Assembly: GCA_009602725.1 (NCBI GenBank) | Contig: WELB01000126.1 | Span: 104,229 to 138,416 of the forward strand | Direction of reading: 5' to 3' | Source of the DNA: Spirogloea muscicola | Taxonomy: Eukaryota > Streptophyta > Zygnematophyceae > Spirogloeales > Spirogloeaceae | Length of the DNA: 34,188 bases | Shown here: one piece after another, positions 4,846 through 34,188 of the stretch | Numbering within the stretch: the first letter of the stretch is position 1 | Layout: the number at the start of each line of letters is the position of its first letter | The notes under the pieces: generated by a model | Told to the model about the DNA's origin: nothing | Database searches by the model: none | The model's input: the letters and a program-made list of their open reading frames with translations, nothing else | Position numbers and translations under genes: made by a program

Positions 4846-7800
4846 TCAAGTCAAGACAAGCTCGGTAGGTCTTAGAGCTGCCTGAGCCATGTCCCTGATC
4901 CTTCGATTTCGGCGACATGAGTCGCTCAACTCCTCTAAGGTGTCCAGCAATGAGGGCTCCTGTGCGCCGCTGGCTGTTGCTGCTACTGCCGTCAGCATCT
5001 TTGTTTTCTCCTCTTCACTGGCAGCGGCAGAAGGAAGAAGGGCTGCTGCTTGATGGAACCACTGCACGGCACTTTGACTGCACAGCCTGGCCAGAGCAGC
5101 AACGACATCCACCAACTGCATCAACAACACAGCGTCAATAGCAGTAACGATGTCATTGGGCAGGCATGTAATTATGCAGGCCTGCATAACGTCTGTCCTA
5201 GAAAAGTACTGTGTGATCGCAGACACGACCAGGCGGACTAAATGATTGTATACATGATTGTAAACAATCATGTATTGTATGCATGATTGCTTGTAAGCAC
5301 TGAGTCTCCAATCACCTCTACTGTCCGAGACTCCGGTAAGGCCCCTGTGAGAGCAGCCAGAAGGAGACGTGCCAGCGAACCACCGCGGATGGATAACTCT
5401 GCCTCGGCAAAATCTCTGAACCCACCAGAGCCATCCTTCAGAGGCAACTCTAGGGCATCACGGAGGAAATTCAAGAGAGAGCGGCACGCTTCCCTGCGCA
5501 ACAGCAACACAGGGTCCTGCTGGTGAGCAGAGTTGAGAAGCAGATTACGCACGTATCTCAACATTGTATGTCAGAAGCGAAGAGAATTGATGTCAGAAGC
5601 AACAGGAAGCAAGTACGCGGTGTTATGCAGAAACAGGTGAGACGAAAAAGTGAAATTTCTCCTGTGGCAGAATTTCCAACTGTGGATGGTGTACCCTCCT
5701 TGATGGAGCTCCAACAGGAACCCTGGCCACCCTTGCATATAATGGGCGACAAAAGTCAATGCAAGCTAGCAAAACAGGCTCCGGTTTATACCTGTGCTGG
5801 AGAGTGATGCCTCTCATTGAGCAGTCAAGAAGCTGCCCAAAATAGGAGGCGTTGTACATCAAGTGGGGACAATATCGTATACACCGGGAAGCCAATAGGA
5901 AACAATCATCCACTAAGTCTGGATGCTGTGTGAAGTCCTGTCGCCAAGTACATCTGAGGTAAGAAACGTGAAGATGTAGAGTATGCACAAGTAGAAGAAG
6001 CAGACAACCTACAGGTAAATCGGCACGCACAAACCAAGCAGCCCGGAAGCCCTAAGCTGGCCCAGCTTACTTCGGTCGTTTTGAGTATGCGTATGCACTC
6101 CCCAAAGAGGGAGGCCAGGAGGAAAGAGAGGGGGCTGGAGCAGGAACCGTCACTGCCAAAGACCTGAGTGCAAAGCAAGAAGGCTGAGTCGGTCATAATG
6201 AGCGACCATCTTATTGAGACGTCTATGACATGCTTAGTGGCACTGCAGAGCCAAATCACGTCCACAGTAGGGCACCGGGGTGCTGAGTCTTTAACACTCT
6301 TTGGGGTTTACTGACAGGGCACTTTGATTGTCAAAGTGTGCAAGTAAGGCAGACCTTGACTGCCTCGCTAGCCACGTAGAGCAGGCAGGGCTGATGAGGA
6401 GGCTGGCGAAAGTTTTTCTCTATCTCCTCCATTATGGTACCCAAAAATGGCCCTATTGTCCGACCAGCATTTCGTATCTGGCAGTAATTACAGCAACCAA
6501 AGCCAGTAAGGAGGTCATTGCATCTTCAAGAAGACCTGACAACAGCTTTACTTCTGCTGAGCGTCTTCCAACTTATAATTGCCAAGTGTATCAACGGATG
6601 GATTAGACGCAAGTAAATGCAGGGCAGGGTGGAAATTTGTCATGAGTGCATTGATGACCTTGCAGCAACCTCTGCAATTCAAATGGCCCTGAGACTACTT
6701 TCGGAGGGCTTACTGCATATTTACAAGCTCGGCAGAGTCTCTCCATGACACGGTCGTCAGAGCCTTTCCTGAAAGAGTATGCTCCTATCAGTCAGGGCAA
6801 GCACTGCACGTTATCCTCTACAGACTTGTCATTCTGCACAAGTGTGCATACTTGCTTGGCATACATGTTGATAGATACTATCTCAATGCACTTCGAAGGT
6901 ACTACCTATCTGCAGGAAAAGTATCTCACAATGCAAAAACAGATTGAAGAAGTGGCCACATTTGTTGGAAAGCTTCCACCACCAAAGAGGGTTGCGTCAC
7001 GTATCTGATGAGCCAAGATGGATGACCATGAATATGTACAGAATATTGCAGGTTGCATGCGTGCTCGATACCTTCTGCTACATGATCAATCTCTTGCTAT
7101 CCTTTCTTTGACATGAAGGCATTACTTTATGAAGGCAGTACCTGAAGATGTTAGCTATGCGGTCTATCAAGACGGAGAACTGTCCGCTGACAGAGCTGCT
7201 CTGCTCAACAGGCATTGCTTGCTGTTGAGCAGCAAGTACTGCTTGCTGCAATTAGGAGCCGATGCAAGCTGTCAATCTCTAGCTTCAACTCTTTCCCAAA
7301 CGACAGAGCAAGAATGATGCTGGATCTGTAGATGGCCAGCCAACAAGTATGCGCTTGCAATAATCTGGATGGACAAATTGTCCAAAAACGGATATAGATC
7401 CTATAAGGCTAGCAAAGACTAATTAATGATGTCGCACATCTATTTAAGAGCTCCATGAGCACTTCCAGAAGGAAACTTTTTGGGCTATGGGCACAACACT
7501 GAGCCCATGTATGTAGAAAGGAGAGGGACACAGAACCTGCAAGGCACTCGAGATTGGGAAGCAGATGGCATGCAACGCTCCAGAAGCCCCATCAGCTGGA
7601 AGAGCACTGACCACCATACTGCTCTACATTGCCACATGACAGAAGAGTAGTGAAGTGTTACATTCAGAAGTCATGTAGCAAGGCGAATTTCTGAAGTGAC
7701 ACAAGTAGCAATTTCAAAGGCTCCACTTCAAGATACTGGGCACATGGATGGCAGGACTCAAATACAACCGAAGCATGACAGATATTCTTGCAAGAAGCTG

Positions 7801-10800
7801 CCGGTGGAAAGTGATGGCAGAGGACGAATGCAGAGCTCCCTGCCTCGTCCAGGTCTATGAGCTGATTGGAAGCGCTGTGAATCTTGCCTGCAGCAGCCCA
7901 CCTGATTCCTTCAATGATCTGAAGCTCATCAGCTGCAGTCAGATGAACAGCTTGATTTGCTGTGTTTGTTGACACCATGGGATGTGCAGCTAACACCTGA
8001 TGGTATAATTGTATAAGTGGATCAATTGACACCACCAACTGCTGTCGACAAGCTGCAGGATGACAGGCAGCATCTAGTCAGCATCACAACACCACAGTTC
8101 TGACGACCGTGAGCTGCCTGCTTCGCACCTACAGATGTGGCATTCCTGCTACAGTAGGTCCAATGAATTGCACATGAGAGGGGCACGGCTGTCTGATTGA
8201 AAGCTTGCATGATCTTGAAATGATGGTTCCAGTAATGACCAACTGCCCACCAGCGTTGGTAAGGCAGAGGTTTGTACAAGGTATCCATGCCACTCTTTGA
8301 GGGAGGAACAATTACCATCACAGACATGCTTAAGAGCCAAAGCGGCTGCTGGAGGTGCATCGTCTGGAGCTGAAAGACTCTCAGTCAAGAGAGCAAGAAC
8401 ACTTGGCAGAAGGTTACTGTGACCATGTTGTTGTGCTGCTCCCGCCAGCCAGTCAGAGTAGGCAGCTATCATGAGTGAAACTGGAGAGAGGAGTACAAGA
8501 GGAGAACATACAAAGAGGAGAGGAGAACATAAGAGGAGAGAGGAGAGAGGAGAGAGGAGAAGAGAGAGGAGAACATACAAAAACACAGTCAACCAAATGT
8601 GAATTGGCGGCAAGTCACATTATAGGCCATGATCAGCAGCTTCAGCTGAAAGACTGCCAGCCACACCACCACCAACAGCCAGTCTATCACTCTAAACAAG
8701 AACAGGATGGTTGTCCGACCAAGTAAAAGACAGGAATGTGAGGAGATCACGTGATCTGCGAAAGCAATGCCTCTGCTGACCTGTGTACAGCAGCTGGGGC
8801 TGTCGAGGCAGCTGAGGGAGCAATTCCATGACCTGCTCACAAAATGATGGCAAGCTTCTGTACGGGGCAGACGGTGCAATCACCACGAGATGTTTTGGCA
8901 GGACAACGTTGCCCTGACCTCAAGTTCCGCAATTGTACATGCTTAAACTTCTGACCTCACAAGCACACTGTGCAGCAGCTTAGATGCTTACAGAATGAAC
9001 AAAGAAGCTGGATCCTGGCTATGTGCATTGCTGCTGGTAATAATGGTGGACCTAAAGCGCAGCGAGCCAACCTGTGGTAGGACAGATCTTTCAGCTCGTG
9101 GTACGACATTTGCAATTGCTCGTATACAATAGATGGGGGCTTCTGCACTTGGCCACTCCAAGGCTCCAGCACTGGTCCCCTGAGTCAGCTGCTCAACAAA
9201 AGGCGTTCTTTGTAAAACCACGTATTGAGATTTTTACAAGCAGATACTGTGGGACTTAAGCCTGAAACCAACGCCATAAATTCCTCTTATATTCATTGAC
9301 AAAATGGTACAGCTTGTCTGCCCTTCTTGCACAATCAAACCTGCTAGAGACAGAAGGAAGTATACCTCCACCAGAGGACGTGCCAAAAGCTGCAGGGTAT
9401 GTTCCCCTCCCAAGACAGCAGCTGCATCCACAAGTATATCTGCAACGCCTGCACACAAGCCCCAACTTCCGATTGATTAGTCTGACGAGACGTTTGCCAG
9501 TAAAAGTACTGTGAAATATGCACATGTAGACAATTTGTGCAGCATTTGCGCAGCAGTCCCAAACAATGTACCATAACGTGTGTGCTTGAAATCAGCCTTC
9601 TCATCCCTTCTCCACTCGTCATACCCTTTAGGGTACTGCACCCTAAAGCTGACCTGCAGGTTCAAGTTACCCTACTCAGGTCAGCCTGGGAGATTCGGTA
9701 AGCTTGTGTTTTTTAATAAAGACTCAAACTGTAGAACTGCCAATACATGAGGATACTGTGCTAGTAAGCATAGGTCAATCACCAGCTGGACAAGGACCTC
9801 AAAAAGAGGCCTAAACAGCGCAAGTCGCCTGTTTCGCTCAGCTGTAGCAGCTACTGCCTCATCGGCATGACCATCATGCCTGCAGAAGGTGGATGACGGA
9901 GTAATCAGCAGGGGGTTTATGTTGGCGCTGGTCTTCTGCGTGTGATGTATTTGTAGTCAGAGATGCACTGTAATCTCAGAAATAACACATTTATCTGGAT
10001 CATCATAATGCACTTCAAGATTGAGCACTCGGATGAAAAAAGAAAATCCTGTAGAGAGGCAAACCTTTTAGAAAGACATCGGCTGAGATGATGCCAAAAA
10101 TTGAATGTAGTAGCAGCAATGCTGTCATCTGGATGGGAGGTCACTTCGATCAGGACCTCAGCCACGAGCAAAGCCTCGCTTGATCCACTTGCTATGAGAT
10201 CAACATAGGCCTCTCCCATCTCCGCAAAAAGGCGAGCCATGCCTTTGACGGTGTCATCGTCCTGGCAAGACAAGGACTACAATTCAGCAGATTCCTTGAG
10301 AAATCAGTGAGAATATCTGGGGGCGCACAACATCCTCATTGCGCTCACTGCCATATTCAGCTCAGAGCCTTGACCAACCAACTTTCCTGCATGTATCAGT
10401 TCAATGCCAAGATTTACCTCGTCTCCTCCACCATCGAGGCTAGTGTCTCCTATACTAGTTCTCCCTTGCTTCTCCTCTTGTGCAGCCTGTAGCAATCAGA
10501 AGCTTTCTGAATTGATAGAGGCAGAAGGCCCCAGATCAAGTAGGAAGACCTTCAAATAAGAACCAGCCAGATGCCTGCTGACGCATGAGGTGCCCATGAA
10601 TGCAGTTCATAACAGTTTCATAAGAGAGTGTGACATTTCGGACATTTTGAAAAATCAAGAGCAGAAGTTAGTAGCTTTCCTTCAGTGCTTTGTTGAATCG
10701 AGGTCGCAGAGCCATCAAACGAGGTACAAGTACTTGAATGAGTGGCATATTTGCCGCGATGTCTGCGCTGCTACTCCCTACCGAGAATCTGATGAGTTCG

Positions 10801-13198
10801 CAAACAGCTGCCAAAGCAACAACTGCAATAGTCAGTCACTGAGCTTCTAATGTCAAAGCAAGAGATCATGAGCATTGCTGCCAGTCTCAGCAACAAATTG
10901 GGCAGCTTAGAGGCTCACAAGACTTTTGGGTTGCGTGCAATTGTCAGAAGCCCTCGGCAGGTGCTGACCTTCAACAGCTGCATCAAAAGTTTCTGGTCTT
11001 GCAAGTCCATCTAGAGCAGAAATCGTAAGGGGATGAGATGCTAGCACTGATGCAGAGACATTCCTGCAGAAAAAGTGGTAATTGCCTTCTGGAGATCCTG
11101 AGATAGTGTTCTAAAGATTAAACTGCTTATACAGGCAGTGACAATGCAATGCTACCATGCATGCAGAGCAATGTACTGGTGCAGTTGTAACTCATGAGGC
11201 GCCCACAATACAACAAACAGCATACAGAAGAAATGTGCAGACATTGGGCAGGCATACCCATTACTGATGCGTAACCAAGCTGCAAAAGCCAAAAACACCT
11301 ACAAGCAATAGAGATTGAGTCAACGTCTCTCCATTGAAGTGAGAGGGTTTGCTGCCATTGCAATTGTGCAGTTCTCATTGCCATGTTGAGCCTGCGGAAG
11401 AGCACCAGGCACTCAACCTCCAAGACAGGTGCACACCTGCTCCTTTGCCCCACCACTGCCTTTCAACAGAGAAGCTGCCAACAGACTGAGAGCTTCAGGT
11501 ACAGCAGCAACAAGCTCTGAGATGAATTGTCGCCTCCTTTCTGGTCTGATTGCTATCTTGTAGCTGCTTCCTTCCTGCACAAATCAGCCTGTACTTGTCA
11601 ATTGCGCACATCCTACCACTGCCTCCCACGCCTAGATGAATAAGCAGGTACCCATGATCTGTCAACTCTGTGACATGCTGTTTGCTAAATTTGTGCATGG
11701 GGCAGTCAACAGAGATTCTACCTACTCAACAAAGCACCCATGGCAAGGGCACGTCAGGGGATGTTAGCATGCCTGGGGCAAGACCGTCAATAGCTCCAGA
11801 AGGCCAGCATATGCCTCAAGGTTTGAGCTGAGTTGATCCCCTAACCACGTCACAATACCTCCAGATTGACCCCACTTATCTTGGGGCAAATGTGCCGCAA
11901 CAGCTGCAATTGCTAGGCACAACTGCATGAGCAGAACAAACAGCAAATCAATGATGTAATGGGCAGGGAGTTCAGGGGCTCGCTGCTCTCAGTGGAAGAA
12001 ACCTCCAGAGGGTTGCTGCTTCTCTCTCATTGGGTAATAAGTGCTCATCTGAATATTCAATATTTGGAAGGAATCCGCTCATCTGGAAGAAAACGCTGTT
12101 GGCAGATCTCACTCATCTCAACGAGAGTGTATCCCTTGAGGAACCATACCTGTGTCCTTACAGCTGCAGGGCCTCCCAAGTATAAGAATTTAAATAGCAG
12201 GGCCTGGAGAGGCAGAGTCTAGCACTTCTTGAGAACAATGTGATGTGTGATTGAAGTTGCTTAGTCACATACATGCAAAACCCTCAAGCAGTGCTATGAA
12301 GACTGGCTGGTCAGCATTCGCAAGATCCGAGTCATTGTAGCGAAAGTCCAGGCAGCTGAACTAAGTACGTTACCATCATGTGTCAATAAACTCACCAAGA
12401 GTGAATCACGCAAGGAGACAGGAGCTCCTGGTGGCAGCTCCTCAAAGTCCCGCTGAATCTGCAGGTGCACAGCTGTTATCAAAGAACCATCTCTCGTTTT
12501 GACTCAACCAGCTGACACAATTGCTTCAAGGCATGCCTGGACTGGCCTACAGCAGATTGCTTATACTTGCATGCTGACTGCTATGACGGCATTCATATAA
12601 ACCCAGGGGCAAGCTGGGCTAACGGAAGTTGGCCAAACAACCCTCAAACGCAAACTCCTTGTAGAAGCACGTAAGCAGGGTGACGGACATACCTTCGTCC
12701 TCAGTGTCTGGGCACAAAAGTACTGCACCTCCAGCGAGCTGCTAGATGAATGCAACAAGCTGTCAGAGACCTGCATCCACGGCAAACCCGTAACCGGGAG
12801 TCAGAATGAAAGCAAAGGGAGGCTCGCAAGAGGCTGCGGACCGTATCCCGGTGTCAGCGGAAGCGCACAAGAGCTCGCCGAACGGGGAATTGTGGAGGCC
12901 AGCCGGACTGCTGCCTCCAAGCAGAGTGTCCAGTGGCAGAGCTGGCCGAGGCCACAAGCTGCGTAAGTGACAGCGAGAGCCAGCACTGTGCTTCTGCTCA
13001 ACGTCGCGGACTCACCTGCCACGCCTCCACAGTCTGCTGGAAGTCCTCCAGCCAGCGGTTGGCGGCAGACCGCACCTCCGGGTCAGGGTGGTGATACAGC
13101 GCCTGCAGCGCCTGCAAAAGCGTGGCCGCCGTGCCGCCGCCGCCTCCGCCGCCGCCGCCGCCGCCGTCGTCGGCGGCGCCGGTGGCGGCCTGCGCCAT
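4846..13198 (-). CDS. MOS14: Transportin-3/MOS14-type importin-beta (nuclear import of SR splicing factors)
   Basis: Twenty-six exons on the minus strand: 13016-13198, 12693-12770, 12396-12458, 12150-12203, 11773-11922, 11437-11574, 11258-11298, 10969-11063, 10680-10807, 10065-10261, 9783-9879, 9572-9653, 9366-9448, 9072-9188, 8781-8832, 8278-8480, 7902-8041, 7537-7618, 7142-7245, 6930-7004, 6714-6768, 6355-6477, 6071-6163, 5792-5937, 5301-5493, 4846-5115. They sum to 3042 nt, exactly 1013 codons plus stop; plant MOS14 is about 958 aa. Known family members carry SR-type splicing regulators into the nucleus with Ran. Landmarks are ALYHHPDPEVR, RDFEELPPGAP, VRTQLCLAIAAVAAHLP, FNFWHHLSRCLSKR, FRVQYPKGY, VDDCFLLASRCIRYCPHL and the C-terminal LEELSDSCRRNRRIRD. 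The N-terminus carries 11 consecutive glycines (residues 12-22) absent from relatives I remember. The first in-frame ATG is at 13198; the frame stays open upstream without another ATG. Intron 5 has a GC donor and intron 9 a GA donor. The exon 16/17 boundary (8278/8041) is the least certain. Confidence 0.93.
5251..5274. repeat. Perfect 11-bp inverted repeat in MOS14 intron 25
   Basis: TACATGATTGT (5251-5261) and its exact complement ACAATCATGTA (5264-5274) are separated by two bases, so either strand can fold into an 11-bp stem. Partial further copies of ATGATTGT and CATGATTG flank it (5242-5290). It lies in the last intron of the MOS14 gene, about 30 bases inside the 5' splice site at 5300. 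Confidence 0.85.
8480..8580. repeat. Homopurine/homopyrimidine low-complexity tract in MOS14 intron 15
   Basis: About 100 bases are almost entirely A and G on the plus strand, built from GAGGA/GAGAG units with a recurring GAGGAGAACATA motif (three copies near 8498, 8518 and 8566). On the transcribed strand this is a long pyrimidine tract ending directly at the exon 16 acceptor (CTCTCCAG, exon start 8480), so it doubles as the polypyrimidine tract of that intron. Confidence 0.8.
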
Positions 13199-13738: not shown

Positions 13739-16700
13739 ATGGCGGCTGCGGAGTCGAAGCCGGGTCCTGGCGCGGCCGCTGGCGAGGACTACCAGCTGCG
13801 GTGCGAGCTGCGGGGCCACGCAGACGACGTGAGCGGCCCTCCCTGCTGCAGCCGCCGCACACCCCGAGCTCGGCAGCTCGGGCATCTCGTGCAGCTCTGC
13901 CTCGGAAGCTCGTCGTACTGCCGGGAATCAGCGCCAGTCGCCGATCAGGTCCTGAGCCGCCGCTGCTGGCCACCCGTCGGTTGCGTTCCCGTAGGTGCGT
14001 GCTGTGTGCACCTTTGGCAAGGACGGCATCATCACGGCGTCCCGCGACAAGAACCTCTGCTTGTGGTCTCCAGCGGCAAGCGACGGCGGCCGTGGCTACA
14101 GTGTCGCGGTCACACTGGTGGGGCACACGAGCTTCGCGGGTGCGGTTGCTGAGGCGCCGCAGGGCCGTGTGGTATCTGGCAGCATGGACGCGCGGGTGCT
14201 GCTCTGGGACGCGCAGTCGGGCGCGTTGCTGCAGGACCTCCGGGGCCATGAGCTACAGGTGACTGGCGTCGCCATCACCGCATCAGGCGACGTCGCGTCC
14301 TCCTCGGTGGACAAGTTAGCGGCAAACCCTTAAGCCCTGGACGTCATGAAGACCAAGTCAGCCTCGACAGAGTCAGGAAGCGCAGTCTAAGGATTGGCAA
14401 GAGGGTGGCATGCCAGGACCGTGAGAGTTTGGCGCGACGGCAGCTGCATCAACGTCCTGCATGGACACGAGTCCTCTGTGCTCGCCGTACTTGCACTCCC
14501 TAGCGGCGAGCTTGTCAGCGGTGAGCACTGCTGCTGTTGGCAAGAGCCTGGAGGGTGCTGGTGGCGCAGGTGCCATGCAATAGCCAGGCTTGACGATCTT
14601 CATCCCTGAGCTTGCCTGGTTTGTGTCATCACTGCAGGCTCTGGAGACTGCACTGTGAAGGTGTGGCGAGGCTCGTCCTGCATACAGACCCTTCGTGGTC
14701 ACCAAGGTGCGAAAGAGCTGGCTTCCTGCCTCGGACTGCGAAGCTGCACTAATATGCTAGGATTCTTTTCTGTTTTCCCACAGAGCAGGAGTTGCTGACC
14801 TTCCTGTCCTGTATCAAAAGCTTCTGACTTGCCGGTTGGCTGCCTTCAAGGCTGAGGGTCCAGGCTTCAGGCAGGGTTCACAAGTCTCAAGCTTTGATTC
14901 TGGGTCACTCAATAGTTGCATGGCTTTTAGCAGCTCCAGGAAATGATCTGCTATACCCAGTAGCAGTCATGCCCCCTCTGAGGCACATAGGATATCGATT
15001 TACCAGAGGCCAAGCCTTTGGGCGGATGCAAATTTGCCTGAAGCCCAAAGCCCTATGCCCAAAGCGTTAGCCGCTTTAAGATGACAATACGTCTGAGATG
15101 GTTGCAGACTCCGTGCGAGGGTTGGCGCTCATGCCCGGCATAGGCATCCTCTCAGCCTCCCATGATGGGTATCTCACAAGCCTCTCGATGCATCTTACCG
15201 CCTGCTGCAGCCACCTTGACACCTGCTATCATTCGGCACCTTTGTCAATGGTTGTGATTGACAGCAACATATATCTGTGCAGTTTTGTAAGGCAGCTTGC
15301 AAATATTGGCACGACGTTGTGATAAATCACAGAAAGGATGTAGATAGTCAGTATGTCCTGCTCTTACCCGCCAATATTTTCATTATTGAGAAACCAATGG
15401 TCTTGCTGCTGCATGTGCTGTGCAGGTCCGTCCGCTTGTGGGCTCAGAGTGGTGAGCTGCTCCTGGAGATGGTTGGTCACAAGGCGCTTGTGTACTGTGT
15501 TGCGGCAGGCGCGGCTGGCGAAGTCGCCTCTGGCAGTGAGGACAATACTGCCCGGATATGGCAAGGTATGCTTGTCAGTGGAATTCACTCACTTTGTTCG
15601 ACATCACCACACTACATCTCAGCATGTAAAACTTGTAATCTTGTAAACACTGGAGTCTTCATGTCAACTTGAGCTGGACAACAGATTTCCTTGTCCTTTG
15701 GGGTCAAGAGATTGCTGCTCAAGTCACTCTAGGATTGAGGTGCTTAAGGCATTGCTGTCAAATATGCGGGGTGTTGCAGATGGGCAATGCAAGCAAACGA
15801 TCGACCACCCCGGTTGCATCTGGGCTGTGACATATCTTCCTGGCGGGGACCTCGTGACTGCGTGCTCCGATGGTGTTGCGAGGGTCTGGACAAGGGACGC
15901 CTCCAAGCGCGCTCCGCCTGATCAAATTGCTGCCTATGAGGCTCAGCTTGCCACACGCTCAGGGTGAGGGCAGGCAATGTCTACGCCCTGCTGCCAAGCT
16001 AGACTACTTGGAGCCATAATTTGGTGGTCAATGGTGGGACAGTTCTCCCGGCCAACTGATTATAGACTATTATGATCTGCGGTCATTTTCTCCACCTAAA
16101 GCTTGTGTGTCAGTGTGCGCCACAGCAAGACCGTGGGTGGCGTGAAAGTAGAGGACCTTCCTGGGCCGGAGGCCCTCAAAGAGCCAGGTGCCTGCTTGGC
16201 TGTGACATGCTACATAGTGTGCAAAGTATGAAAGTCGTTCAGTTTTTTATGCATACTCACTGTATCTGCACCTAAAAGATGGACTGGTGCTGGTTAATGA
16301 GGTGGACTTTGGATTGTTGATGTGCCCAAGCCCTGACTTCAAGCTCTATCTTTTCAAATTCTGCCAGGCAAAAAAGATGGTCAGATCAAAATATTCAGGG
16401 AAGGCGGCTCTGGTGTTGCTTTCTCTTGGAACGCAAAAGAATATCAATGGGACAAGGTAGGCATGGAAGGCTGAAAGCAATGCAGGTGTGCAAAGTCTGC
16501 TTGGTGAGAGCTTGGATGAAATATGTGAATCTGAAGATGTGTGTCTCTTCAGCTGGACTGACATGTCCAGCATTTTATTAGACGAATCACGTTTTGTTTG
16601 GAGATGAATGTAGAACAGCAGCCTGGATGCTCTGTTGTCCGCTTGCTCGTACTGATAGGCACATCAACCGCAGATTGGCGAGGTTGTAGATGGGCCGGAA

Positions 16701-19700
16701 GACGGATCGCAGGGCAAGGAGCTTGATGGAGTCACTTATGACTTTGGTGGGCCTCGCTGACACATACTGTACTTGGAAGGCCCTTCTTATAATTATAGAC
16801 AGTTGCAGGCAATGACTGGTTGCAAGTACTTGCACGCTGCAGAGTCCTAGGTCTTGCTGGGAGGAAGGACAATGTTCAGCGGTCTCTTTGGCGCTTTAGG
16901 GTATTATACATGTTGCGGCAAAGTACTACTTCTGTGTTTCTACAGGAGGAGTGCGATCTCCAGCAGTTCTTGGGTTGCTATACAATTACAGACTAAAGTT
17001 CGTATTCCCTGCCCGACATGTGCAGTGTTTGATGTGGACATTGGTGACGGTGTTCCCCACCGAAAGCTGCCGTACAACCGAAGCGGTACAAGACTTGCCT
17101 GCATCGAGCTGTACATAAGTGCCTTGCCTTGTTCAGCAAGGATGAAAGCAATAGCAAGAGAGCACACATGGGATTGAAAACGATGCACTTACTTGACTAT
17201 GCAACTCCACCTTCCGTGCAAGGTTGGCTTGGAGCAGCATGCCTGATGTAGGAAGTCTATTGACTTGAAGATTTCGAGCAGCTTGTGACATCCTATGGAT
17301 GCCTCGCATGTAGCAGCAATATGATGTGCTCAAATATTGACTTGTTGCAGAAAACCCATATACAGTAGCAGACAGGTGGCTGGTCGAGCAGGATCTGCCA
17401 ATGGGCTACAGGGAGCAAGTTGTTCAGTTTATCATTTCCAATTCAGGAGGCCCTTCTCCCAGCCTGGACAATACCGTTGCCAATCCCTATACAGGAGGTA
17501 GGTGGCACCTGACAGCAGCCTGCATGTCACTTTTGGCGTTCTAAGTGAAGGGAATATTATTTGAATCAATAACAATATGAGCTCCACTGGTCTGCGCTTG
17601 CGTTCAGGCAATGCATATGTGCCTTCAAGCAGACAACCTACATCGAGCTTTGGTATGTTCCTGTCCATCCCCTAAAGTGTACCTTGAGCAGCCAAAGCTG
17701 ATCTTTGCTTCTGTTGCTGCGTCTTGCTCATAAAGCAGTGGGTGCAGTTGGTGCATTGGTCTCCACTTTGTTGTTGACCTTATCAAGTGTATTTGCAGGT
17801 AGCACACCAATGGTCACAAATCCTGATCCTTACACTGGCAATCAGAGTGAGCATACACTCCGTCAAGGCTTGATATTATCTGGGCCTTTCAATAAATGTT
17901 CTGCATCCGATGGAGGCATATGAGACTGCCGTTTACCCTCATTGCACCAGGGCAGACACTAGTACTTGCTTCAAGCTTCAGCTTAGCATCCTTCCTTGCC
18001 TGCACTGCCTGGTGATTCAGGCACCCATCAACCAGCACCAGCAAGCAGCAATCAGAATGCGAGCCTTCTCCATATTCCCAAGGTTAGCAACAATAATAAT
18101 AACATTTGCCTTCAATGAGGATCTTGGAGGCAATGTCCCACTTTTCATTTGGTCATGAAGTCAGATATCAGGTTTTACATGCTTTAGCTAATATCTGTTG
18201 ATAAGACGCCCTTTATCAACCTTCTGCTCAAGCAGGTGCCCTGTGATTGTGTAGACACAGTGGTATGGAGGCTTGAATGTGGTCACAAGAAAAGATCTGA
18301 TTTCTGCATTCTACTCACTCAATATATTGCTGGACAATGCTGTGAATGAGTGCAGAGAGGGTATCTTGCTTTTGATACTGCACAATATGACGGGATACTG
18401 AAGAAGATGCTGGACTTCAATGCCACAATAGCAGCCTCTGACGATGTATTGCCACAACAAGCACAACTCGTTACTTTGGGTTGCTCTAGTTGCTGCTCTG
18501 AGCTGCAGTTTTGACATTTCTACCAGCAGTGCATACTGCCCAAGATGCTACTGTGGCCATAATTTACCCACCAATCAGTTGAATAAGCACCTGTGTGTGA
18601 AAGCACAGCTTGCAAGCCGCGTCCATCACTCATTTTTTTTTTCCTGTCATGCGGTCAGGTGTCAATCAGGACGTCAGCAATGGCAAACTCTGACTTGCTG
18701 AGATTGCAAGCCATGCTTGACGTCCTCAGGGAGAGCAGCCAAAGCCAGTCTTCTACATTTGCAGACGTGGATTTCACGCTGCTCATCAAAGTCCTCCTCT
18801 CTTGGCCTCCCACCAACTTATTTCCTGGCAAGTGAATGCACGGGCTGTACTCTGACTCTTCCGTTAAGAATCTGAATTATTGACCACCTTTGCTCTGCCT
18901 GTCTGGTGTCCACTGAATGAGATTGTTTTTGACCCTTGCTCCATTGCCCTTCTTACCATGCATGCACAGTGCTGGATGTCCTCCGTATGATGCTTCTCAA
19001 CCCCCAATGTGCTGAACATTTTGCATCACTATCGACCACACAAGGTGATGTAGTGCAATGTGCGGCACATATGAGTAGAAGTACTGGATTCGCAATGAAC
19101 ATCTTTTGCTTTACAAATACAAGATTGACACGGCACTTTCCTGGCAGCACAACTTCTGGCTATCTTGGTGTGCAAATTGGTCAGTAATAGGGCTCACTGG
19201 GTTGCAACGGCTATTTTGGCAGGCTTTCTTCCGCAGATTTTTCAGCGAGCTAGCTCTCCACCAGCACTTCCTGCAAATCTCTTGACAGCTATCAGGGCAG
19301 CTGTTAATTGCTTTAAGCAGGAACCCCTCAGGTTGTGGATGGGCAAGCATGCATCTGAGGTGTCCATCTGTACCCTCTCTCGATAGTTGGTACCTTGCAA
19401 ATTTGCTCTCAAAATGCACTTGTCGATTTGAGATTCTCAAGGGGCCGGGTAAAACACCTGTCTCATTTTATAACAATAGCGCACTTATTCTGTGAATACC
19501 CAATTTCCATTCCCAGATTCCTCATTGCTAGCTCAAAAAGCTGATGATGTCATGTCAAGCTCTGCTCTGGCTGTAAGCAAGGCGTTTATGGTTTTGTCAT
19601 GTTCTTTGAAACAGATATTAGATCTTTTTGCTGATTGTATGAATTCAGCCAATAAAAACATACGCCTGGCTATTTCAACCTTGATTCTCAAGTGAGTCCT

Positions 19701-20349
19701 TCATTCACATCCTGCCACAGAGCGTCACAGGCATAGCCTGTGGGCACTTGTATGACCCTGCTTGTGGCATGCTGATGCTGCCCCTTGTGCTGCCCAAATC
19801 ATTAGTAATTCGCAGCCAGTTCTGTGCATGAGCAGTTCCTCGTTGTTAGCTTTGGAGATTCAAGACAGCAGCTTGAAGGTGCAGACGCTTTCTGCTGCAA
19901 TGGAGGTAGGTATGGAGGTAGGTAGAGCGACGCAACATTTTGCGACCATTCATTGCTCTACAATGCAGCACACTGTCGTGAAGGGCTGGAGAAACGTCAT
20001 AAGCTGTTGCAAGCAGAACTGACGCTGCTAGAGGCTCTGCTTGGTTTATCAGATGTCTGCCTCATCCGATGATGATTCAGAAAGTCTTTTTCGAGCTCTT
20101 GTGGCTTTGGGGACATTGGTGAGTTGCTCTCTTAAGCATGACGGGCCACATGCTTCTTGTGTCGTAGTTTTGCGATCAAACTGTTGCATCACATGTGAAT
20201 TCGAAATCCTGTCACACCAGATTCACGGAGGCGATGTGAAGGATGTGGCATTGGACTTGGGAGTTGGGGACGTAGTCAAAGCACAGGAGAAGTCGGAAAC
20301 AGATAAGATTGCGCAAGTAGCAAAGGAGATAGCATTCCTGTTGAAATAG
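13739..20349 (+). CDS. PLAA: PLAA/Doa1/Ufd3 homologue: WD40-PFU-PUL ubiquitin and Cdc48 adaptor
   Basis: Twenty-three exons: 13739-13828, 13995-14314, 14417-14520, 14638-14706, 15108-15168, 15426-15565, 15780-15963, 16126-16187, 16368-16456, 16674-16746, 17026-17085, 17351-17497, 17608-17652, 17799-17846, 18021-18082, 18356-18445, 18659-18827, 18970-19044, 19223-19359, 19615-19691, 19836-19905, 20053-20118, 20221-20349. They sum to 2367 nt, 788 codons plus stop; human PLAA is about 795 aa. Family members bind ubiquitin and the AAA ATPase Cdc48/p97 in ubiquitin-dependent turnover. Domains: seven-blade WD40 propeller, about residues 15-305 (repeated SGSxDxxVxxW, e.g. VSGSMDARVLLW, ASGSEDNTARIW); PFU, about 350-465 (VFDVDIGDGVPHRKLPYN); PUL, about 520-788 (VLDVLRMMLLNP; NSANKNIRLAISTLILN; FRALVALGTL). 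NPYTG and DPYTG motifs occupy the linker. Intron 17 has a GC donor (G|GCAAGT). The exon 21 donor is tandemly duplicated, and its acceptor at 19836 is less certain than the others. Confidence 0.94.
19900..19923 (+). repeat. 12-bp tandem duplication covering the exon 21 splice donor
   Basis: ATGGAGGTAGGT occurs twice head to tail (19900-19911, 19912-19923). Each copy contains GAG|GTAGGT, so there are two identical candidate 5' splice sites 12 bases apart. Using the second would add four in-frame residues (VGME) to the PUL domain. Confidence 0.85.
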
Positions 20350-21888: not shown

Positions 21889-21962
21889 GAGAGCAGCAAG
21901 CGCGGCCAGATTAACTGGTGGCTGGGAGAGGCCAGCCCAAAAGAATGGACAAGGTCTGAAGG
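21889..21962 (+). repeat. Dispersed short repeat, copy 2, with a 33-bp unit shared in inverted form with 26957-26989
   Basis: The first part (21895-21927) is identical over 33 bases to the reverse complement of 26957-26989. The second part carries the family signature CCAGCCCAAAAGAATGGACA followed by AGGTCTGAAGG. It lies about 220 bases upstream of the SICKLE-like start codon. Confidence 0.75.
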
Positions 21963-22179
21963 AGTCGGAGTGCTAAGGACTGAGACAGCAGTAAGCGAAC
22001 TCTCAGTAACCTCTCGTCAGTAGATGCAAATCTGAGTAGCTAGCAGGCGGAGAGCCCACAACGCCCAACTCGGCTCCGCCAGGGTCCCGCCGCTTCGTCG
22101 CCGCCGCCGCCGCCGCCGCCGCTGGTCCTGGCCTTGGGCCGCGGCCGGGCGGCCTGCCTCGCTTGGCCGGGAGGCGGCC

Positions 22180-23023
22180 ATGGAGGAGGCGGAGGCCCGC
22201 CGCGCGCGGCTGCGCGCCATGCGGCAGGCTGCAGATCGGAAGAGCGTCGTGTAGCCTTGACAGCGGCGCGGCAGCAGGCGCGGCGCAGGGCTTCGCATAC
22301 TACACAGACCCTCTGGCGGCATACGCGCCGAAGCCTGCTGGGGCCTCCATGCAGTGGCGAGGGCCCCAGGCTGCGCCACAGCAGCCTCTGATCGCGCAGC
22401 TGCCCGCGCCGTCACAGCCGGGTGCGCCCGTCTTTGCGCCGCCAGGGCGGCCAGAGAACCATGGTGGCGCAATGCCGGCTCCTGGGGACCCTCGTGTGGG
22501 AGCTGGCTTCGGGCGGGGAGGCCCGTGGCGGCCCCCCCATCAGCCGAGACCCCCTCGGTACTTCCGGCCTTACGTGGGCCACGGCCACGACGGTGCCGGC
22601 ATGGCTGGCCATGCTGGTGGCGACGGCAGCTTCGTGGGTCCGCACCGAGGCGCCTTCCCAGGTGGGGCTCAGCCTGGTGGTCAGCTCCTTCGCTCAGATG
22701 GGAGGCAGGACGGACGTTATCGTGGTGGTCGTGGTGGCGGGGGACCGTCGAGGGGCCCAAAGGCCCCGCGGCACGGCGGCGGCGGCGGCCGCGGCGGCGG
22801 CCATGGCGGCGGCGGCGAGGTGTCCGCACGAGAGAAGCCCCACCTGTTCTACAACAAGTCCATGGTGCAGGACCCCTGGAAGGACTTGCTCGCGGCCCTG
22901 CCCCCAGCTGCAGCACCCCCGTCGCACTCTACGCCACAAGCTGCGCCAAACGCTGGCCGTGAAAGCAGCACCAAGAGCTCTGAGGGCTTGGAAACAAATG
23001 CCGCCGCAAGCAATTTGACTTGA
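22180..23023 (+). CDS. Gly/Pro-rich protein with conserved termini, possibly SICKLE-like; reading frame interrupted by adapter sequence
   Basis: From ATG at 22180 the frame reads MEEAEARRARLRAMRQAA and then meets a stop inside a 22-base Illumina adapter match (22233-22254). Leaving those bases out, the frame continues directly into a second open frame (LDSGAAAGAAQGFAYYTDPL) and ends at TGA 23021-23023, giving 273 residues. The total is divisible by three only without the adapter. The protein has a basic N-terminal helix, an FAYYTDPLAAY motif, a middle rich in Pro, then RGG/GGGG repeats typical of RNA-binding low-complexity segments, and a C-terminal LFYNKSMVQDPWKDL. The combination of an N-terminal E/R-rich helix, a Y-TDP-A motif, an RGG stretch and a terminal SMV-DPWK motif recalls plant SICKLE (hydroxyproline-rich, small RNA and splicing related), but I recall that family imperfectly. 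It converges on CCaMK. Confidence 0.65.
22233..22254 (+). other. Illumina TruSeq adapter sequence (assembly artefact)
   Basis: Twenty-two bases beginning AGATCGGAAGAGCG and ending CGTCGTGTAG match the Illumina TruSeq read-through adapter known from standard library kits. They fall in the coding exon of the SICKLE-like gene, bring in an in-frame stop and shift the frame by one. Both defects vanish if the 22 bases are not genomic. Confidence 0.93.
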
Positions 23024-23942
23024 TGAAAAGCTCCGGCTTGCTTTGCTAGCCCCTGGCTACTTCTCGTTGAGCACAAGCACAGCAGCCTCGTCCTCGAAAG
23101 ACGTCCAACCAACACTACTACACTGCCTCTTGGTGAGCCCTCCCTTATCATGGGCACGCAGTCTACCCTGCCGCCAATGGCTTGCCTGAACTGTTGCACA
23201 TCGATTGGCTCTCTGACCTGCCTGCCACTCTCACCAGCTATCAGACCTTTTCGTCTGTTTCCAGGGGCGTGTTCCTGTAAAGGAGGAGCACGGAAGCTTC
23301 ACGACCTTACAGCATAGCCACCTGCGGATGACGTTGACCAGCTCAGCAGAGGGCTATGTGTTGCTCTGGACATAATGCATGATGGCCTTGCTCAGGCTAC
23401 GACACAGCCAACCGCGAGCCTGACGCAGGCTGAACAAAAGCTGTGGCAGATGCTGACTGTGCTCTCTAAGCTGCTGTTTCTGCACTGCAATGTGCAGTGA
23501 TATGATAGCAATTTTAAAAGCAAGGCATGGGCTGGTTCTCCATGCTTTGAGGGATTGCTAGATCAGCACAGCAAGTTGCAAGCTTAGAAGCAATCAAGCC
23601 AGGCAGGATCCTCATAATATTGCTCAGCCAGTCCTGCAAGCTAAGTGAGATGCAGAGCCAGGCACGGCACACTTGCAAGCACAAGGTCTCCTTCTTAGTC
23701 CTTTAAATGGACGCAGAAGAATATTCTGGTGCCTCCCTGATTGACAAGAGCGTGAGTCTATGTCCTTTAAGGAATATTTCTAGGAGCCCTGCATTACCAG
23801 GAGCCCTGCGAGTGTGCCTTGCAATGGGCGGCTCTTTCTTACGAGAGCTGGCCAATGCAAGCCATACTTGCCGCTCATGGTGCATGTGCAGAGGCGGCCA
23901 GAAAGCAATGTTATAACAGCTCCTACAACGGCCTGCAGTCTC
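23024..23942. other. Convergent intergenic region (3' UTRs)
   Basis: This 0.9 kb lies between the stop codons of the SICKLE-like gene (+) and CCaMK (-). It should hold the two 3' UTRs. No credible coding frame was seen. Short direct repeats occur near 23699-23810 (TCCTTTAA with GAATATT twice; GGAGCCCTGC twice). Confidence 0.5.
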
Positions 23943-26623
23943 TCATCTGCACCTCATCTGTCGCTTTGCGGATGCGGACGCCTTCTCCTTCGCTGAGGGA
24001 GAGATGCCACGCGCCGTCTGCAGCAGCGCATCCATTATGTACTTATCTGAGTGGAGGCCCGCACGGAATTCCTCGAAGCTCAGCCGCCCGTCGCTGTTGG
24101 CATCCATGCGGTCGAATAGGTCATCCAGCTCGCCCTGCTCTGTGATGTTTGACGGGAGGAACTCACACGGCAAGGCCTGCCCACATTTGCAGCAAGCTAA
24201 GTCAAATGCTATAAGCAACAGCATGACGATCTACTTCCTGTCCTTTAAGTGCAGCCAAACAAAAAGTAGCAGAGTCTAGTCCTCTTATACATGTTAAATC
24301 GCATGGACACACTAACCAAGTCCACATGTTGGCTGGCAAAGTTTGCCTTTCTTACTCGCAACATGCAAGCAAGCTCCTCCTTTGAAATGTGACCCGAATC
24401 GTCCAAGTCATACATCTGCAGCCAGTAAGGTTTCGTGAAGGAATCTCTTAAAAATGCACTATCGCCAAAGCTCAAATGCCTGCATGACCCAAGGAACACT
24501 GTAGAGATGTGCATTTCTGCTTCAACAAATTGCATGTGGGCACTGTACCTTGAAGCAGAACTTGAGGGCCTCCTCGCCCTCCGACTTCTTCAGAGATGCA
24601 AACCCGCACACAATCTCGCGCATGTCCACTGTGCCATCGCTGTTTGCGTCGAAGATGTCAAAGATGCGATGTGCAATGGGGGTCAGCGAGCCCATCTGCA
24701 TGCCCTGCAACACCTGCTCAAATGCTGGGAGTGTCAGGCTGGTCCCATCCCCTGCCCTGCAGCACAACAGGGACGTCGGCCATCAATGAGTTTGGTAGGC
24801 ACATGCAGGAATACTGCCCTGGATAATCATCTGAGCTCAGTTTGCACCAAAGTAGAGGTACCCCTGGTCGTACCTGAAGCATGTCACGACTAGCTGCCAT
24901 GCCAAGGGAAGATTGCTGCCGTGGTTGCAATGAGTGAATGAAGGCGACTAAAAGCCTCAAGATGCGCAAGCATCTGACTAGCCAGAACGTGATGAGGGAG
25001 GATATTGCGTACAAGCGTCTGAACTGGCTGTGCAGCATCTTGAGCTCCCCAGAACTTAGCCCCTCGCTGCCCATGAGTGACCGCAGCTGCTTGGTACGCA
25101 GCATGAACTGGCTGCTCACGATGCTGGCATAGGCAGCCGCACGGAACTTGCGGCGAGCATTGAAGGAGATGAGCCGACGGAAGATGTCCTCCTCCACTGG
25201 CTCCTGCTTTGCCACTTGGCCCGTCACCCAAGGATGCAGCAGCAGCTGCCACGCGGTACTAGCACCAGCCGATGAGGGCTCCTGAGACAGCTGAACAGAG
25301 TGGCAGCAGGAGCGGCAGCTGATTGATGGACGAGGCAGGAGTCCACAGCACACTACTAAACCCCTGTTACGAGCTCGCTCTTACCTCTGCAGCGCTTGGC
25401 CGCTGGCTGGCGTCCAACGTGAGGAGGCCCTCAATGAGCTGCTTGGCAGATGGCGACACGCTCTTCCACGTCTTCTCGTCAAAGTCAAAGGAGGCCTGCA
25501 CGCAAGGCCATAGAATCACAGATTGAAAGTACCTTATCTCAGTAAAGGGCTGATTCGCTATCTTGCTCTTGGACTTGCGTAAGTGCATGTTGGTACTTTC
25601 TTGACTCGGTGCGACGACTGCCATCCCGCTCAGTCTTGTCTTGAAGAGCAGCTGACAAGCACACAGAATCTGTGGCAGAGGCTTAGCTCAAGCTATGGTG
25701 GGCTCAGTGGCAGAAGCACCTACCTTCTGGATGAGCTGCTGCTTCTCCTTGGTGCTGCGGGCGTGGAAAGGAGGGTATCTGATCGAGGTCGACATGCAAT
25801 GCACGATGCCATAGAGTCAGGCTGGCCAGCAACTCGAGTGAGGCCGACACCCACGAACCGAATGGACACGTGATGTTGGGCTCAGGGGCAAGCGCTCAGC
25901 CGGCTCACTGCCAGCATCACAAGGGAAAAAGGTGGCCGTCCTTGCGGGCGCTCACCCACAGAGCAGGATGTAGAGGATGACGCCGAGGGACCACATGTCG
26001 CTGGCGGGGCCGAGGCGGCGCTGCTGCAGCGCCTCGGGCGGCACGTAGTCGATGGAGCCGAAGAGGCCGGCGAGCGGCCGGGTGGCGCCCTCGATCTGGC
26101 TCAGCCCGAAGTCCATGATCTTGAGCGGCGCCGCCTCGTCGGGCGTCAGGAAGAGGCAGTTCTCGGGCTTGAGGTCGCCGTGCACGATGTCCGCGGCGTG
26201 CAGGCTGGCCAGGCCGGCGGCGAGCTGCCGGATGACAGCGGCGGCGCCGGCCTCGGAGTAGCGCTCCTGCGACGCGATGCGGTCGAAGAGCTCGCCGCCG
26301 GAGCAGAGCTCTAGCACCAGGTGGACGTCCGCAGCGTCCTCGAACACGTCGCACAGGTGGATGACATTGGCGTGCGGCGACACCCGCTCCACCACCGCGG
26401 CCATCACCACCACCTCGTTCTCCACCATCGCCGCCGCCTCCGCGTGCGCGCCCCGCTTCCTCAGCGTCTTCACCGCCACCTCCCCGCCGCCGCCGCGGGC
26501 CACGGCGCGTCGCACCACGGAGAAGCCGCCGGTGCCCAGCACCTCCGCCAGCGAGTAGTGCTCCTCCAGGCGCCGCGGCGCGCCGTCGTCATCGTCGTCC
26601 TCGCTGGGGCTGCCGGCACCCAT
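23943..26623 (-). CDS. CCaMK: Calcium- and calmodulin-dependent protein kinase (CCaMK/DMI3 type)
   Basis: Seven exons on the minus strand: 25956-26623, 25724-25778, 25385-25495, 25013-25245, 24549-24756, 24356-24415, 23943-24176. They sum to 1569 nt, 522 codons plus stop, close to legume CCaMK (about 518-523). The Ser/Thr kinase domain spans about residues 23-285: GTGGFSVV glycine loop, ATP lysine K52, HGDLKPEN at 148-155, DFG at 171-173, PPEAL, EKTW with T250. A calmodulin-binding segment follows (FNARRKFRAAAYASIVSS, about 306-323; LRTK after it), then three visinin-like EF-hands with intact 12-residue loops (DANSDGTVDMRE 392-403, DLDDSGHISKEE 428-439, DANSDGRLSFEE 470-481). Three rather than four EF-hands, and the FNARRK segment in place of a CDPK junction, separate it from CDPKs. 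In land plants CCaMK decodes nuclear calcium spiking in symbiosis. T250 sits where the autophosphorylated Thr of DMI3 lies. The usual HRD arginine is Gly149. ATG at 26623 is the first in-frame ATG; N-terminal Gly2 is followed by an acidic run. Confidence 0.93.
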
Positions 26624-26943: not shown

Positions 26944-27007
26944 GCTTCCCTCTGCATCCCAGCCACCAGTTAATCTGGCCGCGCTTGCTCTCGCTTCCCT
27001 CTGCATC
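26944..27007 (-). repeat. 34-bp unit flanked by 15-bp direct repeats
   Basis: GCTTCCCTCTGCATC occurs at 26944-26958 and again at 26993-27007. Between them are 34 bases that, read on the minus strand, match the repeat unit at 21889-21926 apart from a 3-base difference. The identity runs 33 bases (26957-26989 against 21895-21927), just entering the left repeat. The arrangement looks like an insertion with target-site duplication or like slippage. Confidence 0.75.
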
Positions 27008-28112: not shown

Positions 28113-28725
28113 ACCGAAAAGCGCTTGACGAGAAAGCTGGTCGAGCCTCAGCTGGTGGCACAAGGGCTTGTCAAGTGCCGTCCCCTATTTGGGCATTCAA
28201 TTACCGACCTCTATGTCCTGACTCGCGGTTACAGAGCGAGTCAGCTTTAGCAGCTGCTTATGTACACCTGTCGATGTGCTTGCCTCTGTACTTGACCACT
28301 CAGGCCCTCCATCAACCAATACACACTCCATACTGCAGCTCCTTCCAGTCTTCTTTGATATGCGTCTAGCCCTTTTCGGCATTGTCAATACCTTTTGGAA
28401 TGCCTTTTAGGATGGCCTTTCACAGCCTTTAGGAAATGCTTCATCTTGATTTTCAGTGATGCATTTCCAGACTCCGCTGGACCTTGTCCTCCTAAAAGCT
28501 GGCCCTTCTCTGCCTCGCCCCCCTTTGGAGAAGCTGCTCCTCGTACATAGCCCCATTCGGAAGAGCTTCTTTGTTCCAGCTAAGTCCGCTTCTTGGGCAG
28601 GTCTTTCATAGCCATCGCCTCATCCTGAACGAGCTTCTTTGTAGCTGCTATCTTCTAATCTGCGGCTATTGACTAGGGGTGTTTGAGGAGCCATCCTTAG
28701 GGGTCACTTGAGTGGTTTGCGCTTG

Positions 28726-32226: not shown

Positions 32227-33558
32227 GGGGGAGATGGGAAGGCTTCCATGGCCATGTGCTTGTCATATGTCAGCCACTCCTTTTGGCTTGCATTTCCGCC
32301 TACAATACTTATAGAATTGAGTGTGTGCTGAATGATGGAGGGCCTGAGTGGCCAAGTACGAAGGCAAGCACAACCGCAGAAACGCCGCCTACCTCTGTAC
32401 AGAATCGTCAAAGGTAGGCAGAGCACAGCGGCTGAAACACAGGGCCAGCCACTTGCTCTAGTCAACCTCTTCCTGTTTGTGGGCTGGCCCATCTGCAGCT
32501 ACTTGCGGCTACTGGATCCTCTTTCGCACTTTCTAACAAGTCTATCGTGTCAGCGTGATGGACGAGGGGCTGTGAAAGCCAGCCTGAAGGACGGTGGTGT
32601 ACTCTGACATCAGCATATAGCTGATAGGCTGAGAACCGCATCTCACTTCGTATTCGCCAAGAGGACCTGTGGTTCGTCAATATTTCAGTAGCAACTTTTT
32701 CCATGTAGTCCCCTCCCATCAGCTGAGGTCACGGCCGGAGAATATTGCAGAGGCTTGAGGGTGTTGTGCTGCTGCCTGAAGCTCCGTATTGACAGTCGGC
32801 TACAGACTAAAGTCACAGATTTCATTCTTGCCTTCAGAGTCCACTTGTGAAGTACCAGCTATTTGTGGATGTCATGACCTCGGTCGTGATGTCCTGATTA
32901 ATGTGGGCAGTCAATGAGCCTGCAATTTCTAAGTGAGAGTAAATTGGCTGGTAGTCCAAGGCTGTGAGCTTGTCATTCACTTTGGCAAGCTCCTTAGATC
33001 AACATCTCACAAAAATACGACTATCCGATGAAGACATGCTGAAGCAACCGGTGGTGTGGCGTAGGAGGGGTCCAATCCCACAACAAGTAGCAGTGGCTAT
33101 TCCTTGCTCGTGTTAGACAACAAGCAAACTCGTGGTGTAAAGTACTGTGATGTGCTCACTGACAGCCCACAGCATCCTTGGCCAACTGGTTCTCCGCTCC
33201 AGAGAAAATTGACATGTGGGTGGCAACTAGTGGATAAGTTCGCTATGTATGCCTTGCCATGTTGCTAGACGCAGCATGGCGTACAACTTAAGTCTGTGTT
33301 GACAGGATAGCAAGAATAAGAGGAATGGGACTAAGGAATCGACGAGCTGGGGAAAATCTTATTTGCGGGACTGCAGTGCTCTGTTGCCCGTTCAAAGTGA
33401 CCAGCAATACAGAAGCTCTGCAGACATGCTGCAGAGAGTAGCCACCTCCACCAGCTTATCAGATGGTGCTCTCCATCCAAGCGGATGGGACAAAAGCGAC
33501 AATACTGGCTTGTCTTTCACTATGCCGAGATGAAAACTTGCGAAATCGTTCGGTCAGG
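31971..33558. other. Intergenic region between GSNOR and Tha4
   Basis: GSNOR (start codon 31970, minus) and Tha4 (stop at 33559, minus) are in tandem, so this 1.6 kb holds the GSNOR promoter and 5' UTR and the Tha4 3' UTR. A (GA)27 tract lies 200 bases upstream of the GSNOR start. A diverged copy of the dispersed repeat is at about 32563-32592 (GAGGGGCTGTGAAAGCCAGC). Between 32600 and 33558 I see nothing recognisable. Confidence 0.55.
32170..32223 (+). repeat. (GA)27 microsatellite upstream of GSNOR
   Basis: Fifty-four bases of uninterrupted GA dinucleotides, followed by a G-rich stretch. On the GSNOR coding strand it is a CT tract 200 bases before the start codon, so it may lie in the 5' UTR or core promoter. 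Its copy number is likely variable and collapse-prone in assembly. Confidence 0.97.
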
Positions 33559-34188
33559 CTATGGTTGCTCCTTATCCTCGGCCTTCGGCAGCTCTTTCAA
33601 CTCCCTGGTTGCATCCTCAGCTTTTGACTTGACTTCATTCGTGAACTCCTTGGCTGCCTGCAGACCCCGCAAAGGACTGAAGAAATCAGCGCTCTGGAGG
33701 GAGGACAGCAAGAGGCTCGCTGCTCGGAGCTGTGGTCATCCAGATTGTGACTTGCCAAGCCTAAATATCGGGTGCGAGCTGCAGAGAATGCAGAGAATGC
33801 AGATGATCAGATATTTCCAGATTCTAAACCCTGTGCCCGTACCACCGCGTCGATATCTTCCTCTGACAAGCTTTCTGTGAGGTATCCATATGGGCCATGG
33901 TCGGAGCACTTGGGGCGGCCCATGAGCGGACCTGCTGGAAGCTGTTGACGGTCTTCCCCAGCCGTTTCCCAATCTCCGGCAGCTTCTTGGGGCCGAAGAG
34001 CACGGTGGCTACGCCTCCTATGACCAGCACCTCCGCAATTCCCAGGCCAAACACCGCGCGGGCTGCATGGCGACGCCGGAGCGAAGCTGGGCTTCGGCGG
34101 GCGGTGAGGGCCAGCCGGGCGCCCGCAAGGCCACCGGCTCCGGCGCCGTGCACCGCCGAGGCGCAGAGGCCGCCGGCGGGGCGCGCCG
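33559..34188 (-). CDS. THA4: Thylakoid TatA/Tha4-type twin-arginine translocase subunit (5' end outside window)
   Basis: Two exons: 33932 to beyond 34188, and 33559-33657, ending in TAG at 33559-33561. The visible N-terminal part is rich in Ala, Arg, Ser and Gly, as expected of a chloroplast transit peptide, and has no ATG in the window. The mature part has the TatA signature: a short membrane helix with the conserved glutamate (GIAEVLVIGGVATVLFGPKK), the hinge FGPKKLPE, an amphipathic helix (IGKRLGKTVNSFQQAAKEF) and a short acidic tail ending EDKEQP. Tha4 oligomerises with cpTatC and Hcf106 to move folded twin-arginine proteins across the thylakoid membrane. The short tail favours Tha4 over Hcf106. 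Confidence 0.93.

Follow-up and report, generated by a model that had tools for sequence, protein, structure and literature searches.

A likely orthologue of land-plant CCaMK with three canonical EF-hands and land-plant intron phases in DNA of a probable green alga

The window, by which we mean the whole 34,188-nt stretch of DNA analysed here, carries a gene that we read as encoding CCaMK, the calcium-decoding kinase with which land plants admit symbiotic fungi and bacteria; the genes and repeats around it are collected in Table 1. Among the neighbours is a complete gene for GSNOR (S-nitrosoglutathione reductase / class III alcohol dehydrogenase), and the WD40 gene probably encodes PLAA/Doa1, an assignment that we make from its architecture. 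The gene with the MPLKIP-like motif is convergent with CCaMK, and a TGTAA is found on each strand (23276 and 23307-23311), about 30 bases apart. A 21-base piece of the 33-nt inverted repeat has no match in genome contigs or IMG/VR viral contigs, and scans of the window for Rfam families (gathering threshold) and for tRNAs find nothing.

Table 1. Genes, CCaMK exons and other features, with positions counted from the first base of the window
Feature	Position	Strand	Remarks
GH31 alpha-glucosidase-like gene	314-3444	plus	Pfam; very long open stretch 1714-3444
Importin-13/transportin-3-like gene	about 4846-12000, extent guessed	minus	apparently split into numerous short exons; Pfam match in 9920-10276, E 1.7e-16
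WD40 gene	about 13740-20349	plus	PUL domain weakly suggested (E 0.041, under the cut-off)
Inverted repeat pair, 33 nt	21895-21927 and 26957-26989		100% complementary; flanks the MPLKIP-CCaMK block
Glycine-rich protein gene with terminal MPLKIP-like motif	22040-23020	plus	22.7 bits, Pfam cut-off 28.9
CCaMK gene	26623-23943	minus	from the ATG (26623) to the final base of the stop codon (23943)
CCaMK exon 1	25956..26623	minus	start codon, acidic N-terminus, glycine-rich loop, catalytic loop HGD, DFG, bulk of kinase domain
CCaMK exon 2	25724..25778	minus	preceded by phase-2 intron; YPPFHARSTKEKQQLIQK
CCaMK exon 3	25385..25495	minus	T250, aligning with the autophosphorylation site T271 (Medicago) / T265 (Lotus)
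CCaMK exon 4	25013..25245	minus	kinase domain end; autoinhibitory/calmodulin-binding segment, FNARRK (306-311), S322, S323; acceptor picked from three in-frame
CCaMK exon 5	24549..24756	minus	most of the degenerate first EF-hand; canonical EF loop at 392, DANSDGTVDMRE
CCaMK exon 6	24356..24415	minus	canonical EF loop at 428, DLDDSGHISKEE; donor picked from two in-frame
CCaMK exon 7	23943..24176	minus	canonical EF loop at 470, DANSDGRLSFEE; basic C-terminal tail, stop
Undetermined base (N)	26687		no other in the window; 64 bases 5' of the CCaMK ATG
Inverted repeat pair, 67 nt	28268-28334 and 32313-32379		82% complementary
GSNOR gene	31970-29177	minus	complete, 10 exons
TatA/Hcf106-family (Tha4-like) gene	33559-34188	minus	Pfam; runs past window end

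The seven exons of the CCaMK gene splice to 522 codons without an internal stop, and both ends of the full-length, 522-residue CCaMK that had been proposed from the letters of the DNA are recovered exactly. The six introns (133-256 bp) are all GT-AG and have phases 2-0-0-2-0-0. Three acceptors before exon 4 and two donors after exon 6 leave the splicing ambiguous; all six combinations are open (522-550 aa) with identical phases throughout, and we prefer the 522-aa form because it is the sole combination with both of the land-plant spacings, RPSAAE-LLLHPWV and MLR-ALP. The GC content of the coding sequence is 0.644 (GC3 0.845) versus 0.516 for the introns, a contrast that argues for a coding gene under maintenance and not for a chance open reading frame. 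The predicted product, of 57.1 kDa and pI 5.39, fits in length, mass and pI the plant CCaMKs newly described in PMC4672059, which span 499-550 aa, 55.10-62.01 kDa and pI 5.05-6.30.

We find that the predicted protein consists of a kinase domain (Pfam Pkinase, E 5.7e-64), a calmodulin-binding segment (FNARRKFRAAAYASIVSSQF) with FNARRK at residues 306-311, a degenerate first EF-hand and three canonical EF-hands, in that order; Pfam EF-hand families match in up to three stretches, and no hub domain family is among the 12 Pfam matches. The pattern of a canonical EF loop occurs exactly three times, at residues 392, 428 and 470, and residues 349-376, the position of the first EF-hand in a CDPK, hold a degenerate one without a canonical loop. 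The land-plant CCaMK order of kinase, FNARRK and three EF-hands that the sequence-only reading had described is thus borne out. PMC4672059 defines CCaMK as a Ser/Thr kinase domain, an autoinhibitory/CaM-binding domain and then a visinin-like EF-hand domain, an order that the window protein follows by Pfam and by the PDB ranking of its EF region, and a degenerate first EF-hand is part of the description of CCaMK, group B5 of the calmodulin-fused kinases, in PMC5482843. When the EF region (327-522) is compared with PDB chains, calcineurin B (in a fusion chain), neurocalcin and hippocalcin come first of 386 matches, calmodulin ranks lower and no CDPK is found among the best 60 of the 386, a ranking that points to EF-hands of the visinin-like type.

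The sole CCaMK reference in our comparisons is a provisional Medicago DMI3 sequence, presumed to be correct, in which S9, T271 and S344 fall at the positions numbered in the literature. The window protein is identical to this provisional DMI3 at 278 of 485 aligned residues (57%), compared with 154/431 (36%) for 9vhu, the most similar of three CDPKs (the other two giving 137/429, 32%, and 146/436, 33%), 119/312 (38%) for CaMK1D and 117/297 (39%) for the kinase part of CaMKII. In a tree of seven rows, built without algal kinases and with the provisional DMI3 as its one CCaMK, the two proteins are joined at 100/100, apart from CDPK and CaMK; the other branching is partly unresolved, and the window row and 4mvf are flagged for odd letter composition. 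The intron pattern points the same way: in PMC4672059, six introns are found in 23 of the 34 CCaMK genes, and the phases are 200200 in all but one of these 23, so that the window gene has the usual land-plant CCaMK number and phases. This match, like the EF-region ranking, the degenerate first EF-hand and the F-N of the calmodulin-binding site, is independent of the provisional DMI3.

The top full-length PDB match is a CDPK chain (229 bits, 36% identity), as might be expected if a four-EF-hand CDPK, or a chlorophyte calmodulin-fused kinase of groups B1-B4, had been mistaken for CCaMK. However, none of the best 60 of 2967 matches is a chain with the name CCaMK, and the provisional DMI3 tops with the identical chain; the ranking is therefore no argument against CCaMK. 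With only three canonical loops, an EF region closer to calcineurin B and neurocalcin, the 100/100 grouping with the provisional DMI3, and a complete calmodulin-like domain retained in groups B1-B3 according to PMC5482843, we reject this alternative as highly unlikely. The tree, in which the protein does not fall inside the CDPKs, the visinin-like EF region and the intron phases thus support the earlier assignment of the gene as a predicted CCaMK and not a CDPK.

Most of the regulatory residues of CCaMK have counterparts in the window protein. Aligned with the provisional DMI3, T250 corresponds to T271/T265, and S322 and S323 to S337/S344; F306 and N307 supply the F-N of the calmodulin-binding site, which PMC4672059 reports as 100% conserved in plant CCaMKs. 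The hydrogen-bond network of S237, K264, E313 and R317 reads C222, K249, D298 and R302, with two residues kept and two changed, where K249 is placed by alignment and D298 and R302 are numbered from the F-N anchor; the same source reports Cys at S237 in lower plants and Asp at E313 in one moss CCaMK. The catalytic loop in exon 1 (IVHGDLKPEN, residues 145-158) has Gly where HRD has its arginine, and HGD instead of HRD makes the protein a non-RD kinase. This loop is compatible with putative control by the autoinhibitory segment instead of by activation-loop phosphorylation. It could stem from a one-base difference, and a sequencing error may thus be its source. The glycine-rich loop is present as LGTGGFSVV, and by the presumed Lotus numbering Ala40 probably stands at Lotus G30. 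According to PMC4672059, every plant CCaMK keeps that glycine except one, in which the glycine-rich region is deleted.

Published accounts of where CCaMK occurs differ in part. The sequence-only reading had placed the kinase in streptophyte algae and not clearly in chlorophytes. PMC5482843 agrees, tabulating group B5 in none of nine chlorophytes and in one of two streptophyte algae (present in Mesostigma, none in Klebsormidium), as does PMC4672059, where CCaMK is absent from the chlorophyte genomes covered (six species stated, seven named). Against this, PMC4873514 credits Delaux 2015 with potential chlorophyte homologues, PMC4754458 likewise speaks of chlorophyte homologues of common-symbiosis genes, and PMC5924475 limits CCaMK to land plants. 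For streptophyte algae, CCaMK accompanies POLLUX, CYCLOPS and a SYMRK pro-orthologue in Zygnema (PMC11096116), zygnematophycean CCaMK rescues Medicago mutants (PMC7289718), and CCaMK, CYCLOPS and a SYMRK pro-orthologue are reported in streptophyte algae by PMC11725925, according to which arbuscular mycorrhiza cannot do without CCaMK, be it in angiosperms or in a liverwort. An algal CCaMK would therefore not be new if the contig is from a streptophyte. In our search of the open-licence literature, we met no chlorophyte whose CCaMK combines three EF-hands with intron phases of land-plant type.

The neighbouring genes bear on the lineage of the host. The GSNOR introns have phases 1,0,2,1,0,1,0,0,0 and include one GC-AG intron. 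The encoded enzyme is 82% identical to 3uko, 81% to a second land-plant chain and 70% to 7aas, which we take to be the Chlamydomonas enzyme. In a GSNOR tree of six rows, one of them a provisional sequence and a single, divergent one from a chlorophyte, and hence at best a moderate test of lineage, the window GSNOR joins the land plants at 98/96, the p-AU for joining it to 7aas is 0.042, and the window row lies outside the land-plant pair 3uko-4dl9 at 83/83. GCAG at the 3' end of 10 of the 15 introns, a GC3 of 0.75-0.85 and the short introns of the window genes (100-362 bp) form a style that we presume to be chlorophyte-like. The polyadenylation signals were considered alongside it, TGTAA being the chlorophyte signal and AATAAA being enriched in Mesostigma according to PMC1868727. 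TGTAA lies no more than 650 nt from the stop in five of seven genes (p 0.043 with a post hoc cut-off, p 0.094 on the median) and at 944 nt for GSNOR and 3074 nt for Tha4, so that two of the seven genes (two of five stops in a smaller set) have none within 900 nt downstream; AATAAA is absent within 900 nt of all five stops examined. With seven genes, the post hoc cut-off and an assumed stop for the importin-like gene (4846), the poly(A) and splice-style tests are weak. Scans for relatives in genome contigs and IMG/VR viral contigs, each with a two-row alignment and two short peptide patterns, returned 172 and 27 matching stretches, none confirmed by tblastn.

We favour, without great confidence, a streptophyte alga, such as one at the grade of Chlorokybus or Klebsormidium, whose introns are short and whose codons are rich in GC; the gene would then be a further streptophyte algal CCaMK. 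This placement is consistent with the GSNOR identities and tree, with intron phases of land-plant type, with the CCaMKs reported from Mesostigma, Zygnema and Zygnematophyceae, and with the two of five stops that have no TGTAA nearby. It fits less well with introns far shorter than the Mesostigma mean of 1142 bp (PMC6947507), the missing AATAAA, the TGTAA near five of seven stops and the absence of a tabulated B5 kinase for Klebsormidium. A chlorophyte host, e.g., a trebouxiophyte or a deep-branching lineage, that keeps a true CCaMK is a less probable but substantial alternative, under which CCaMK would predate the chlorophyte/streptophyte split or have been transferred. The GCAG acceptors, GC3, intron lengths and TGTAA distances all speak for such a host, as do the chlorophyte homologues of the two reviews; set against it are the streptophyte lean of the GSNOR tree, the two genes lacking a nearby TGTAA, and the absence of CCaMK from the chlorophytes tabulated in PMC5482843 and the chlorophyte genomes of PMC4672059. 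That a chlorophyte carries a true CCaMK with both land-plant intron phases and a degenerate first EF-hand is put forward only tentatively. A land-plant contaminant would account for the similar length and the shared intron number and phases, but we reject it as most improbable, since the identity to the provisional Medicago CCaMK is only 57%, the GSNOR lies outside the land-plant pair and the catalytic loop is HGD. Land-plant CCaMKs are as a rule closer to each other, and we judge this figure low for a land-plant protein. The host described earlier as an apparent alga is therefore likely to be one, on the strength of that identity and the GSNOR position, while its assignment to streptophytes or chlorophytes stays split; the hope that CCaMK itself would point to the identity of the organism is not borne out, the gene fitting hosts of either kind.

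Taken together, we read the locus as a single intact nuclear gene, probably the orthologue of land-plant CCaMK (DMI3), in a green-algal host that is likelier a streptophyte than a chlorophyte, and give this reading a probability of roughly 0.87. The features on which it draws are seen directly in the gene: domain order, three canonical EF-hands and one degenerate one, a CaMKII-like segment, most regulatory residues and land-plant intron phases. How such a protein might work is suggested by the scheme for Lotus and Medicago CCaMK in PMC4672059. At resting calcium, the segment around residues 298-330 would hold the kinase inactive; calcium binding to the three EF-hands would lead to autophosphorylation of T250 and a higher affinity for calmodulin, Ca2+/calmodulin bound to the FNARRK helix would open the kinase to substrates, and autophosphorylation of S322/S323 would shut off the response. 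We know of no naturally occurring mycorrhiza-like symbiosis in green algae, and for this reason suggest that the protein, presumably soluble and possibly nuclear, may decode calcium signals of stress or development.

What the gene means depends on its host. In a streptophyte, it adds one data point to the known algal CCaMKs. In a chlorophyte, it would contradict the published absence from chlorophyte genomes and move the origin of CCaMK to before the base of the streptophytes: the complete symbiosis kinase would be older than the chlorophyte/streptophyte split, would have disappeared from model chlorophytes, and would survive, with its non-RD HGD loop, in a lineage where no mycorrhiza is known. 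CCaMK is older than arbuscular mycorrhiza, and an algal copy with all modules offers material on the first role of the kinase.

Compared with known systems, the window protein is closest to land-plant CCaMK/DMI3, with which it shares the kinase, the CaMKII-like FNARRK, a degenerate first EF-hand and three visinin-like EF-hands, the T271/T265, FN, R317, S337 and S344 positions, six introns of phases 200200, and length, mass and pI. It differs in reading HGD instead of HRD, with Cys at S237, Asp at E313 and probably Ala at G30; relative to the provisional DMI3, its N-terminus is about 11 residues longer and its basic C-terminus about 16 longer, whereas the stretch from the glycine-rich loop to helix C is about 32 residues shorter. 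The CCaMKs of streptophyte algae (Zygnema, Zygnematophyceae and Mesostigma), set against the window gene through literature descriptions only, are alike in their reported algal presence. CDPKs (9vhu and the apicomplexan 4mvf and 3lij) likewise combine a kinase and EF-hands in a single chain, but have four EF-hands, a different junction and 32-36% identity to the window protein. Animal CaMKII has the FNARRK calmodulin-binding segment together with a hub (association) domain and no EF-hands; the window CCaMK, in contrast, carries EF-hands and is 39% identical to it over the kinase part.
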